Shown here piece by piece: positions 57,640 through 61,902 of a stretch of 64,000 nt of DNA. The stretch is from Massilia cavernae. Lineage in GTDB: Bacteria > Pseudomonadota > Gammaproteobacteria > Burkholderiales > Burkholderiaceae_D. The notes under the pieces are model-generated. The model worked only from the letters and a program-made list of their open reading frames with translations, did no database searches and had not been told where the DNA came from. Each line of letters opens with the position of its first letter. Positions within the stretch are counted from its first letter, which is position 1. The DNA is taken from the NCBI RefSeq assembly GCF_003590855.1, contig NZ_QYUP01000149.1:1-64000 (forward strand), read 5' to 3'. A program made the position numbers and the translations under genes.

Positions 57640-57972
57640 ATGAACGAGGGGAAGTTTGTGTTTTCTTTGGCAGCATATACGGTTACGATCAACAAAACGG
57701 GGTCGAAAAAATCTTTACCACTTGACGCTTTCGATGGAAGCACGAGCTTCCTAGAAATGTTGCATGATTTCATCAAGTCGAGACGCGGATCCGACGTGAC
57801 ATACGCTCACAAGAAACGGATTCTGCGTTTTGCTGCCGTTGATAAGATCCAAAGTGATGCCTTCACCGCCAAATTGCAAACGGGTGAGTACGGTTTTACC
57901 AGTGATCTGTATGATACTAATCTCAAAGCAAATGCCTACAACAGGAAGATGTCTGAAGCGGAAATGTTGCCG
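57640..57972 (+). pseudogene. 5' part of an unrecognised gene split by IS3
   Basis: 111 codons from ATG 57640 (MNEGKFVFSLAAYTVTINKT) to the insertion site. Joining base 57972 to 61504 (one CCG target copy removed) keeps the frame open and gives a 243-residue protein ending in the Tn5-like element: ...SEAEMLP then FLLHAYFPKGRAQGALIF. Low GC relative to the core. The family is not recognised. A weak ribosome site (GAATATCTA context) precedes the ATG; the start could be elsewhere. Confidence 0.75.
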
Positions 57973-57980
57973 TGTGGTGG

Positions 57981-58462
57981 TCAAGTAAATTCGGACACAA
58001 CGATAGGTTTTTTTGCTGCCATGTTCCGTTCGTAGACGGAGGGCGGCAGATTGCCCAGAACTGAGTGCAGACGTTCGCTGTTGTAGAAGCCGACGATGTA
58101 GGCGGCGATATCGACCTTGGCCTCAGCGTGGTTGGCGTATTCTCGCTGCCACACGCGTTCCATTTTGAGGTTCAGGAAGAAGCGTTCGGCGACGGCGTTG
58201 TCCCAGCAGTTCCCTTTGCGGCTCATGCTGCAGATGAAGCCGTGGCTGGCCAATTTCGCCTGGTACTGAGCACTGGCGTACTGGCTGCCGCGGTCTGAAT
58301 GAACGATCAATCCTTCGCCCGGCCGCCGCTGTTGAACCGCCATGTGCAGAGCATCGCAAACCAGCTTGGCTGGCATGTTCGGTGCCATGGCCCAACCGAC
58401 CACCTTGCGCGAGAACAGGTCGATCACCACCGCCAGGTATAGCCAGCCGGCGCCGGTCCGGA
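57981..58462 (-). CDS. IS3 transposase OrfB, 3' exon
   Basis: The C-terminal 160 codons of OrfB: from VRTGAGWLYLAVVIDLFSRK to the stop, with the second catalytic Asp in VHSDRGSQYASAQYQ and the Glu in NAVAERFFLNLKMERV. It lacks its own start. Splicing out 58463-60740 joins it in frame to the 5' exon (403 + 482 = 885 bases = 295 codons), so the transposase can be made only if the intron is removed. Confidence 0.88.
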
Positions 58463-58550
58463 GTAGAGTAAGAGGCAGGGCGTAGTCGAACTATTTCCCT
58501 GCCTCTCCTCTCCGAACCGGACTTGCACCTTTCAGTGCATCCGGCTCTCC
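58463..58550 (-). ncRNA. Group II intron domains V and VI
   Basis: On the minus strand a stem begins GAGCCGGATGCACTGAAAGG and closes with CAAGTCCGGTTC (58513-58546), the domain V shape with the GAAA tetraloop-like turn. A second hairpin, GAGGCAGGG with CCCTGCCTC (58473-58507), is domain VI, followed by the 3' splice site. Confidence 0.8.
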
Positions 58551-58552
58551 AT

Positions 58553-60084
58553 TTAAGTGCTGCTCATAGCAAAGGCAACATCGGCGTATCGCGACTCAAT
58601 CGTTCGTCGCGCTACGTCGCGCACGATGTACGGATTTTCCGACGAGGTCCGCCATCTGAATTGCCCCTTACGGCTTGTGATGAGGCGCCGAAGCGCTATC
58701 GCTCCATACCAGCCACGACTGTTACGACCTTCTACTACCCATGTCTTTGCTTGCCCCGGTTCTGGTTCACAGACATGGTCGCGCATTAGTGACGGGAAGC
58801 CCCGTCGATACTTACGCGCAAGCCAATACCCAAATTTCCAGAAGACAGTGCGATCCAGCTTGCTAAACATGGTGGCTGTAAAGTCGGTGTACTGATAGAA
58901 GTTCGCCCATCCCGCAAGTTGCCGATTCAGGCTTTCCACGACATCCATCCGGTTTGCACCATAATCGCCTGACAGTTGCTTGACCAGTTTCTCGGCAAAG
59001 CGTCGGTACTTCTCCCACGGTATTGTGCTGACAGGCCGCATGCGACCGCGTGGACCTCGCTTACGGATGATGCGATGGCCGAGGAATACGAAGCCATCGT
59101 TGACATGCGTAACATGGGTTTTCTCCATGTTCAGCGTTAGTTTGAGTTGGCCTTCCAGAAACCCACGACACGCTTCGCGTACGGCTTCCGCATGCGCCTT
59201 GGTCCCTTTGACGGCTACCACAAAGTCATCAGCGTAACGGCAGTACGATATTGCAGGTATCCACTGCCGATTCTCCCGCACGGCAATGGGCCGCCGATTG
59301 AGAATGCTGAAGTTCCACGCCCCCGGTCTTGGCGCACTTTCTTGCTAAGATAATTCTTCTCCATCCAAGCATCGAATTCATGCAACATGATGTTGGAAAG
59401 CAATGGTGAAATTACCCCGCCTTGTGGAACGCCTTCGCTTGCTGCTCGAAATAGACCGTGATCAACGCATCCTGCCTTGATGAATTTCCAGAGCAGTGCC
59501 AGCAAGCGCTGATCAGCAATACGCTTACGAATCCCCTTCATAAGCAAGCGGTGATGTACGGTATCGAAGTAGCTGGCGAGATCACCTTCGATCACCCAAC
59601 GGCCTGCGGTATTTTCCGTACCACTATCTTGCAGTTGAAGTTTCACGGTACGTATCGCGTGGTGCACACTGCGGGCCGGTCTGAATCCATATGACGCCGG
59701 ATGGAAGTCACTCTCCCATATCGGTTCCATCACCATCAGAATGGCCCTCTGCACAATTCGATCACGAAGACAAGGAATGCCTAACGGCCTCATTTTGCCG
59801 TTCGCTTTCGGAATCAGTACACGTCGTGCTGGCAGCGGGTGGTACGCCCCCGCCAACAGCTCGGAACGGATCGTCGCGAGTTCAGCGTGGAGATGCTCCT
59901 CCATCCGAACCTTGTCAACACCGTCGACGCCCGGCGTCTTGGCTCCGCTGGAAGCCAGCGTGATACGAGCCGCCTCACTAAGCCAGGCGCTGTCGGCGAC
60001 CAGCCTCAGGAGGCGATCGAACTTGCGTTCTTTGTTCTCCGTTGACCATGTCGCCAGCTTGCTTTGCATTTCACTGATTATCAA
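58553..60084 (-). pseudogene. ltrA: Group II intron reverse transcriptase/maturase, one-base frameshift
   Basis: N-terminal half (60084 to about 59325): TPGVDGVDKVRMEEHL, ANGKMRPLGIPCLRDRIVQR, FHPASYGFRPARSVHHAI and GVPQGGVISPLLSNIMLHEF. C-terminal half (to 58553): the YADD motif in CRYADDFVVAVKG and the maturase domain (FWKFGYWLARKYRRGFPSLM). Frame is lost at a run of five G (minus strand, near 59320-59324); adding one G restores GAWNFSILNRRPIAV and a 510-residue protein. No HNH endonuclease is visible. The deletion could be real or a homopolymer error. Confidence 0.9.
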
Positions 60085-60740
60085 AGGTCTTCACCTCATT
60101 GTGGTCAGTTAATCGACCAAGCAAACCACTTAAACTGCCCCCCTTCGCCATGTGACCGGATTTCCCGGCCTCGGACTACTACGAGGGCTCCGCCAGCTTG
60201 CACATCATCGGGGGCACACTCCCTTGGCATCTGCGCAAACCTTCCCCAGTTCACATGCTGGACTTAACGCATGGGCGAGGTTGCCTATCGCAGCCTTTAT
60301 CCTTGCTTTCCGCAAGTCGGCGCGGATGTCATGGTCTAGCTACGCGCTCTCCATGACCCCATGCCGATCAGCATACATGTCTGATCGGCACTCGCGATTC
60401 CAGGTCATACGTATAACTGAAATCGATCCACGCCCTGCCTGTTAAACGGTGTAGGCAGGGGTGACATTTCAACCCTCAGGTACGGATTAATAGGTTCGTG
60501 TTCCTCAACCGTCCCATGCTCAGCCTAGAGATTCATCTTGGCGTAACCGTTTCGCCGCAAATCCCGTTTCCCACGGACTACGTCACCTTGCCAGTGTCAG
60601 CAAGTCACCGCCGCTTCGGCTCACTTTCTCTCGTAGCAGAGAAAGGGCATTCCCGAAAAAAAAACTTGCCGGGTACTGCATTCCAAACATGCTCAAGCAG
60701 CGTCACCCCAATGCAGGCGGGCTACGCTGGCTGGGCGTAC

Positions 60741-61143
60741 CGTAGGTGATGTCGGAGACGTAGGCCTTATTTGGCGCGGCCGGATTGAACTGGCGGGCCA
60801 GTACGTTGGCTGCGATCGGCAGATCATGCTTGCTGTCGGTAGTGTGAATGAATTTGCGCTTCCAGACGGGTTTTAAGCCTGCCTGGCGCATCAAACGTCG
60901 AACCTTGAAGCGACCGGCCGTAATGCCCCGATTTGACAGCTCTGCCACCATACGGCGACTGCCATAGCTCTGGTGACTTGCCACGAAAGCTGCGCGTACA
61001 TGGACACTCGTTTTGCAAACCGCCGGCGCAGCAGCACGGCGCTTAGCTTCATAGAAACCGGAACGGCTAACGCCCAGTACACGGCAGCTTTGCGAGACAG
61101 GGATGGCCTTCGTTTGCAGCTCGTCGATAAGTCGAAAACTCAT
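60741..61143 (-). CDS. IS3 transposase OrfB, 5' exon
   Basis: First 134 codons of Orf[21 protein letters not shown], the HTH region [20 protein letters not shown] and the first catalytic Asp in [10 protein letters not shown]. The frame runs on for 12 codons into the intron and stops. OrfB overlaps orfA; a run of seven A followed by G on the minus strand (61173-61179) is a -1 frameshift site (A-AAA-AAG) that would fuse OrfA to OrfB, standard for IS3. Confidence 0.88.
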
Positions 61144-61466
61144 TTCAGCTCGCGGGCAAAGAAGGCCGACGCTTTTTTTAAAATTTCTACGTCTCCTCGC
61201 AGTTGGCGGTTCTCCTGCTCCAGTTGCCGGATTCGTTGCTGTTCAGGCGTCAACGGTTTGCCAATGCCTGGCTGGCCAGCCTGCTCGGAATCGTACTGCT
61301 CCACCCAGCGGCGAACGGCGGTGGGACCAATGCTCATGCTCTGGCACACATGCTGCACACTCAGTCCCTGTTCTTTGATCATTTTGACGACCTCAAGCTT
61401 GAAGCTGGGATCGAAACTACGGCGTTGCCTTGTCATGCAAATCTCCTCGGATGGTGGATTGTCCAC
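61140..61466 (-). CDS. IS3 OrfA
   Basis: A 108-residue DNA-binding protein, probably from ATG 61436 ([20 protein letters not shown]). HTH with [19 protein letters not shown] and a C-terminal leucine zipper ([20 protein letters not shown]). The slippery A-run near its end allows the OrfAB fusion. Confidence 0.92.
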
Positions 61467-61500
61467 CTATCGAGGTGTCCGGGCAAATTAGACCACAGCA

Positions 61501-61902
61501 CCGTTCTTACTGCACGCATATTTCCCTAAAGGACGCGCTCAAGGCGCCCTAATATTTCAACGTTTCAAACAGTTCGGAGTTCGTGGCTATTTAATGGACG
61601 AACTGTTTCCTCACTTTACCGCGGCTTTCCCTGGCTATTCTCTCAAGTTGGCCAAGGCGGTACCTAAGGATGTACTCGCGGAAATTTTGGGGAAAGGTCA
61701 AGTAAAAGTTTTCCGATTTGTGAAATATCAAGCCTCTTCGGATATTTGCGACGCCGTCGCATTGATCGACCGGGACTCTGCTACGACTGAAGTAGAATAC
61801 GTAATTAAGGCCAAACGTAATGGCTACTTCGGATTGTTGGATCCGCTAAAAAAGGAATTCAACAAGCCCGTTCCTGATTTTAAGTCATATCGTTATACAT
61901 AA
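61501..61902 (+). pseudogene. 3' part of the gene split by IS3
   Basis: Continues the gene begun at 57640: FLLHAYFPKGRAQGALIFQR, then FKQFGVRGYLMDELFPHF, and ends PDFKSYRYT. The last five codons and stop lie inside the end of the Tn5-like element (from 61886), so the native C-terminus was also lost. A shorter frame from ATG 61594 is open and might be translated alone. No known domain recognised. Confidence 0.72.

Follow-up and report, generated by a model that had tools for sequence, protein, structure and literature searches.

In a 64,000-nucleotide stretch of Massilia cavernae DNA (contig NZ_QYUP01000149.1, positions 1 to 64,000; the window), there is a nest of elements: a gene remnant is interrupted by an IS3-family insertion sequence (IS), the transposase gene of the IS is interrupted by a group II intron, and the reverse transcriptase (RT) frame of the intron is itself broken. 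This nesting is not due to chance. We propose that a mobile, endonuclease-less intron of the kind known as E.c.I4 in Escherichia coli, belonging to class A, retrohomed into an IS3 element that was already resident in a low-GC host gene, and we give this account a probability of about 0.8. The anatomy of the nest, its borders, a second intron copy free of substitutions, the target motif in related introns and the want of a recognised endonuclease domain can all be read directly; the movements that would link them are proposed from what is known of group II introns.

Anatomy of the nested elements

The genome is a draft assembly of 5.44 Mb in 201 contigs, and the IS and intron copies described here are those found by searching these contigs. 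C18, C53, C90 and C159 denote contigs of this genome other than that of the window. The IS3-family element lies at 57973..61500 on the minus strand and consists of 1,250 bp plus a 2,278-bp intron, with the same ends as the copies on C53 and C159. It is bordered by the target-site duplication (TSD) CCG, at 57970..57972 and 61501..61503. Membership of the IS3 family follows from terminal inverted repeats, from three-base TSDs (CCG in the window, ATC in C159, CAA in C53) and from the presence of both an OrfA with a helix-turn-helix domain and an OrfB with an rve domain and a DD(35)E triad. OrfA (61140..61466, minus strand; 108 amino acids; HTH_Tnp_1, 1.8e-15) ends in a run of A at its overlap with OrfB, where a programmed frameshift may take place.

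OrfB is divided into two exons, both on the minus strand. Exon 1 (60741..61143; NF033516 transpos_IS3, 4.7e-33) has D-I-T-Y, the first catalytic D motif, at its end, and exon 2 (57981..58462, stop included; NF033516, 8.3e-55) holds the rve part with the second D and the E. OrfA and both OrfB exons are open frames in the window. Joined, the exons of 403 and 482 bases give 295 codons with the stop, equal to the uninterrupted OrfB of C53 (294 amino acids). In the latter, D131, D191 and E227, spaced by 59 and 35, form the DD(35)E triad, and the position of the intron is after the D131-I-T-Y codons.

The intron occupies 58463..60740 on the minus strand, sits in phase 1 of OrfB and reads GTACG...CTAC. 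Its borders are set by empty sites in the same genome. The IS3 copy on C53 has no intron, measures exactly 1,250 bp and is flanked by the TSD CAA. At the position of the window's intron, C53, C18 and C90 read CACCTACG|TCCGG without interruption, so that the border is exact and scarless; C18 and C90 hold partial intron-less pieces, which may be the two ends of one copy. Independently, the match to the Rfam Intron_gpII model (RF00029; 64.6 bits, E 2e-10) stops exactly at 58463.

The ribozyme domains V and VI were located at 58463..58549 on the minus strand by the Rfam alignment. Their fold has a z-score of -6.8, with 0 of 200 shuffles as stable, and both the alignment and the fold leave a bulged, unpaired A at 58469, seven bases from the intron's 3' end. 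Domains V and VI thus look intact. A candidate exon-binding site 1 (EBS1), CGTAG, lies at 60340..60344 (minus strand; intron positions 397-401), in what by eye appears to be a hairpin loop, and is complementary to exon positions -5..-1 (CTACG). The candidate pairs fully in the window and, with changed letters, in the related loci L055 and L058. We do not claim a general scheme of pairing between EBS1 and the intron-binding site IBS1, given a misfit at -3 in 18 of 24 aligned rows (by eye), and no partner for IBS2 was settled.

The intron encodes an RT/maturase that is spread over two frames of the minus strand. The first (59215..60084) covers the RT (RVT_1, 2.1e-25; TIGR04416, 5.7e-72), and the second (58553..59281) covers the end of the RT and the maturase domain (RVT_1, 1.3e-09; GIIM, 3.9e-10). 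In the profile search the protein matched RVT_1, GIIM and, below the cut-off, RVT_N, with no match to an HNH endonuclease. The frame breaks in a G run (59320..59324, minus strand), which in the alignment to C159 is one base shorter.

An original prediction, made from the letters of the window, had already described most of this anatomy. The four-level order of the nest is borne out, with the intron borders at the bases it had named, and the ends it gave for the intron (GTACG...AC) are now fixed by the intron-less copies, both ends being common to relatives. The CCG duplication, the 295 codons of rejoined OrfB and the G lost from the RT are all found as it had described them. The 26-base IS3 ends it had matched do align, with 17 of 26 positions identical (counted by eye). 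The uninterrupted C53 copy of the IS3 has the same orfB junction.

The state of the RT raises the question of whether its frame break is real. In C159 the intron RT is open (510 amino acids), and OrfA and OrfB each carry a one-base deletion. The window therefore combines open transposase exons with a broken RT, and C159 shows the reverse. All three single-base differences (in the RT, OrfA and OrfB) sit in runs of at least three equal bases, so sequencing error is possible. Given its location in the G run, the frame break may be such an error, in which case the window would hold an intact mobile intron. We put this at somewhat below even odds. Other copies of the IS show similar differences in small runs, and a single base separates the window RT from that of C159. 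On the other hand, C159 reads the same G run differently, and ten chosen long open reading frames (ORFs) elsewhere in the window, out of 87 of at least 180 amino acids, are all open and each match a family, so that frequent indel errors are not evident. An estimate of sequencing error from pairwise gaps against three relatives of the genus gave gaps too noisy for a rate.

A second intron copy and the order of events

A second copy of the intron is present on contig C159, within the same IS3 but at a different site, where the TSD is ATC. When the window is compared with C159, the introns show 0 substitutions over 2,278 bases and a one-base indel in the G run, whereas the IS exons, over 1,226 compared columns, show 11 substitutions and 2 indels (Fisher p 9e-6 for the substitutions). 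If the intron had hitch-hiked with the IS, introns and exons would differ alike. This suggests that the intron probably entered IS copies that were already in place, after those copies had separated. Its spread looks recent, since the introns carry no substitutions. Further afield, the introns of two related loci, L034 and L035, are 91-92% identical to that of the window, and their transposases are 28-45% identical to the window's. The introns are far more alike than the transposases around them, which fits a mobile intron. Within its own genome, two target sites are filled and three sites of the same IS3 are empty (two of these perhaps belonging to one copy); six further consensus matches lie elsewhere.

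In the mechanism we propose, the intron RNA would assemble with the RT into a particle. This particle would find its site in the transposase DNA around the D-x-T-Y codons and reverse-splice into it, a retrohoming step that we take over from general group II intron biology. Splicing from the OrfB mRNA would restore the transposase mRNA. The frame-broken window copy would depend on the maturase of C159, supplied in trans. Loss of the RT in the window copy need not stop splicing: C159, whose intron is otherwise identical, keeps an open RT frame, and its product could serve the window copy as well.

Alternatively, the nest could be a dead end, with both elements decaying passengers, an intron that has ceased to splice here and an IS that has lost its mobility. 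The broken RT of the window fits this idea, as do the one-base deletions in both OrfA and OrfB of C159 beside its open RT, and the position of the IS3 between IS5- and IS4-type elements. Yet domains V and VI appear undamaged and keep the bulged A, the introns without substitutions suggest recent spread, and the OrfA and OrfB exons of the window are open. We regard a dead end as less likely than not. The original prediction had suggested that the intron may restrain this IS3 unless splicing works; on this point, the presence of intron-bearing IS copies at two sites (TSDs CCG and ATC) is uninformative, for or against, because the intron is best read as arriving after the IS copies had separated.

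It is also conceivable that gene conversion or homogenisation during assembly made the intron and exon 2 alike, so that their identity would be little guide to the route taken. The two copies differ at 1 of 490 positions in exon 2 and at 10 of 736 in exon 1 (p 0.058). The single-base indels seen among the window, C159 and C18 fall within runs of at least three equal bases, and C90 lacks one A of a pair. We consider homogenisation unlikely, as both contigs span 3.5 kb of repeat into different flanks and the ten long ORFs mentioned above are open with family matches. Least probable, by a wide measure, is that the intron entered one IS3 copy once and was carried to the second site by IS transposition, with transposase made from spliced RNA or by an intact copy such as C53: the different TSDs of the two intron-bearing copies, and 13 variants (6 of them in exon 1 and 7 in exon 2) which these share and the intron-less pieces lack, are what such a journey would give, but the contrast between 0 substitutions over the 2,278 bases of the intron and 11 over the 1,226 columns of the exons, and the closeness of the L034 and L035 introns to that of the window compared with their transposases, speak against it.

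The target site in transposase genes

The position of the intron was followed through its relatives. From 207 related RT loci we kept 80, of which 75 gave a 5' border (none was obtained for L050, L051, L094, L097 and L109). The borders were set by the start of the intron alone, and no motif was required in the exon. Three loci were left out of the count: L040 and L045, whose predicted 5' end falls off the contig, and L107, which has an N at the picked site and no Asp codon there, and in which an alternative start fits the motif. Every one of the 72 remaining relatives has Asp as the fourth codon ahead of the intron, with GA at bases -13/-12. A strict D-x-T-Y precedes the intron in 60 of the 72, the strict DNA motif is likewise found in 60, and a Trp lies three codons ahead of the Asp in 65. 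Both strands of the window, 128,000 positions in all, contain 4 instances of the strict DNA motif, one of them being the intron site.

The exons on either side were then assigned to families. For exon 1 the set comprised the window and those 65 relatives in which 60 or more codons upstream are open, and for exon 2 the window and 34 relatives. Exon 1 matched IS3 in 63 of 66 cases, IS481 in 42 and IS6 in 2; for exon 2 the corresponding counts were 32, 27 and 3 of 35. L042 and L087 match IS6 on both sides of the intron. Intron insertion is thus at a fixed point of IS3 transposase genes.

The target of the intron would then be the stretch of DNA encoding W-x-x-D-x-T-Y, the first catalytic aspartate motif. 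This stretch is conserved among IS3 and IS6 transposases, which would allow the intron to move between unrelated IS elements. It is an evenly balanced possibility that class A introns as a whole form a lineage, present in several phyla, that parasitises transposons through the DNA of the catalytic Asp (TGG......GAY-NNN-ACN-TAY) and jumps from IS3 to IS6 and even between Pseudomonadota and Bacillota. Such a target would be near escape-proof, because a transposon could not, if this holds true, change its catalytic motif without losing function. The codon-level target rule, with IS6 included, is in our view the part most worth following. It would explain how one intron family comes to reside in many unrelated ISs, and it makes the control of transposons by introns testable. 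The literature searched, as listings, abstracts and passages of papers, gives IS3 targeting by E.c.I4 but states neither the D-x-T-Y codon rule nor IS6 targets of this lineage. The M. cavernae nest is an unusually clean instance: one genome combines empty sites, substitution-free introns in diverged ISs and a sister copy with an open RT, which makes the sequence of events legible.

Several points weigh against our account of a mobile class A intron that retrohomed into a resident IS3. The 13 variants common to the intron-bearing copies have been described above, and recombination or assembly could contribute to the likeness of exon 2 and the intron; a draft in 201 contigs could have falsely homogenised the interiors of repeats. 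With L107 counted as picked, the Asp codon would be present in 72 of 73 loci. Of the 24 sites bordered at both ends, two (L037 and L038) lie outside recognisable transposase frames: L037 has no family match, and a stop codon closes the frame of L038. The base opposite -3 is a C, which does not pair with the usual A, in 18 of 24 rows (by eye). Splicing and mobility of the intron are predicted, and its place in class A is an assignment by closeness of sequence. As a separate observation, L037 and L038 keep GAY at the same place and are possible ectopic sites.

Within the genus, intron DNA is present in 1 of 17 genomes, that of the window itself, and at least 19 of 392 family genomes (two candidates scored per genome) have any match, mostly a short one. 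Loci in Rugamonas rubra and a Duganella sp. from the family also contain the intron, and the nearest RTs among the relatives are those of Rugamonas (93%) and Duganella (92%). The RT lineage extends to Paenibacillus, alphaproteobacteria, gammaproteobacteria and E. coli, although some labels of metagenome bins may be wrong. In a tree of 84 RT rows, chosen by similarity and with a single distant outside row, two E. coli rows nest among the relatives.

Some relatives are themselves the hosts of insertions. In Burkholderia sp. OK233 (L053:5572-7570 and, at the same place, L087), a second group II intron lies inside an intron of the E.c.I4-like family. The inner intron matches Rfam group-II-D1D4-4 (117 bits), encodes its own RT of 454 amino acids in L053 and sits at the 3' foot of the domain V hairpin of the outer intron. 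This twintron resides in an IS6-type transposase, an assignment that for L053 is made through the D-E-T-Y motif and for L087 through family matches. The inner intron is perhaps of a terminator-seeking kind that took domain V for a terminator. In Pollutimonas (L075:4870-7490), an internally shortened intron copy is interrupted by an insertion that carries a transposase frame resembling IS66 (by eye), with 8 intron bases present on both sides of the insertion.

The host gene, its surroundings and known systems

The gene that received the IS3 is read on the plus strand. Its left part (57640..57972) has 111 open codons including the TSD, with a GC content of 45% against 59% for the window. Its right part (61504..61885) has 127 open codons and one base up to the border of an IS4/Tn5-type element. 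The right part contains 0 stops in this frame and 8 and 7 in the other two, and 15 of 20,000 shuffles were open. The original prediction held that removal of the IS3 and one CCG restores an open gene. The joined frame is indeed open, with 244 codons including the stop and no internal stop, but the whole gene is not restored: from 61886 on, the joined frame is the IS4/Tn5-type element, which removed the end of the gene, and the stop at 61900-61902 sits in the end of that element. Only 238 codons of the host gene are left, and its 3' end is lost.

Neither piece of the host gene has a match in Pfam, NCBIfam, PADLOC or plasmids, and the best PHROGs match has an E of 0.13. The right piece alone has no match in viral contigs or phages and is matched in 1 of 399 genomes of the order, the window's own. 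The host gene is thus a low-GC gene without relatives in the databases searched.

The IS4/Tn5-type element (61886..63376, minus strand; 1,491 bp; Dimer_Tnp_Tn5, 1.3e-32) has four copies in the genome, with common borders and 100% identity (rounded). It also cut the host gene, either before or after the intron and IS3 events. Clean 9-bp duplications flank two of the four copies, and none is found at the window copy or at L128; the window copy may for this reason mark a rearrangement. Just left of the host gene lies an IS5-family element (56284..57507, minus strand; NF033581, 1.6e-101) with 21-nt end repeats. Elsewhere in the window, the region 31184-41281 is likely a genomic island, with a tRNA-Pro at 31184, a phage-type integrase at 39971-41281 and a GC content of 0.51-0.56 between them. 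An ORF at 54279-55424 encodes a serine hydrolase of the beta-lactamase family (PF00144), a family that is by itself no proof of resistance, and an Rfam match to Bcj11 RNA (59 bits) lies at 29218-29339.

Three known systems invite comparison. Like c-Ha.de.I1 of Hamiltonella, where group II introns occur in IS elements and in other intron copies (PMC3522654), the M. cavernae nest places an intron within an IS, although the intron and IS types are different. RmInt1 of Sinorhizobium meliloti, a class D intron, likewise resides within an IS transposase gene, that of ISRm2011-2 (PMC4238363), and its intron-encoded protein has no endonuclease domain (PMC8914252). There, poor splicing has been proposed to limit the spread of the IS (PMC4238363). 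Its RT is, however, probably more distant from that of the window; the S. meliloti match, which may or may not be RmInt1, is 34% identical.

The closest counterpart is E.c.I4. An element aimed at conserved IS3 regions is reportedly, going by its title, the subject of a paper cited for this intron. E.c.I4 was placed in class A, for which three almost identical members were listed in 2013 (PMC3552965), and its reported targets are IS629, IS911, ISEc16 and ISEc31, with a fragment in K-12 behind IS911A (PMC3522654). In K-12 MG1655 we find the start of an E. coli-type intron directly behind the IS911A fragment, and in K-12 records such as W3110 the remnant spans 1,764 bases at 99.6%. At this place (L133, E. 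coli K-12 272190/272191) a relic nest can be made out, with the IS911A fragment, a truncated E.c.I4-like intron containing ykfC, and then IS5A. From their targets and the K-12 remnant, we infer that the E. coli introns examined here are E.c.I4.

Like the window intron, these E.c.I4-like introns follow the D-x-T-Y codons in transposase genes of the IS3 family; both introns examined show the same motif and, in the tree of 84 rows, fall within the same RT clade. They differ in their RT, which is 64% identical over its full length, in their DNA (68-69% identical over about three quarters, among the best ten rows), in a 5' end that reads GTGTG instead of GTACG, and in their host bacteria. The class A label given to the window intron rests on the classification of E.c.I4 in PMC3552965, together with closeness of sequence. 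On this comparison, the M. cavernae intron is related to E. coli E.c.I4, has no recognised endonuclease domain and belongs to an IS3-targeting kind that is already known.

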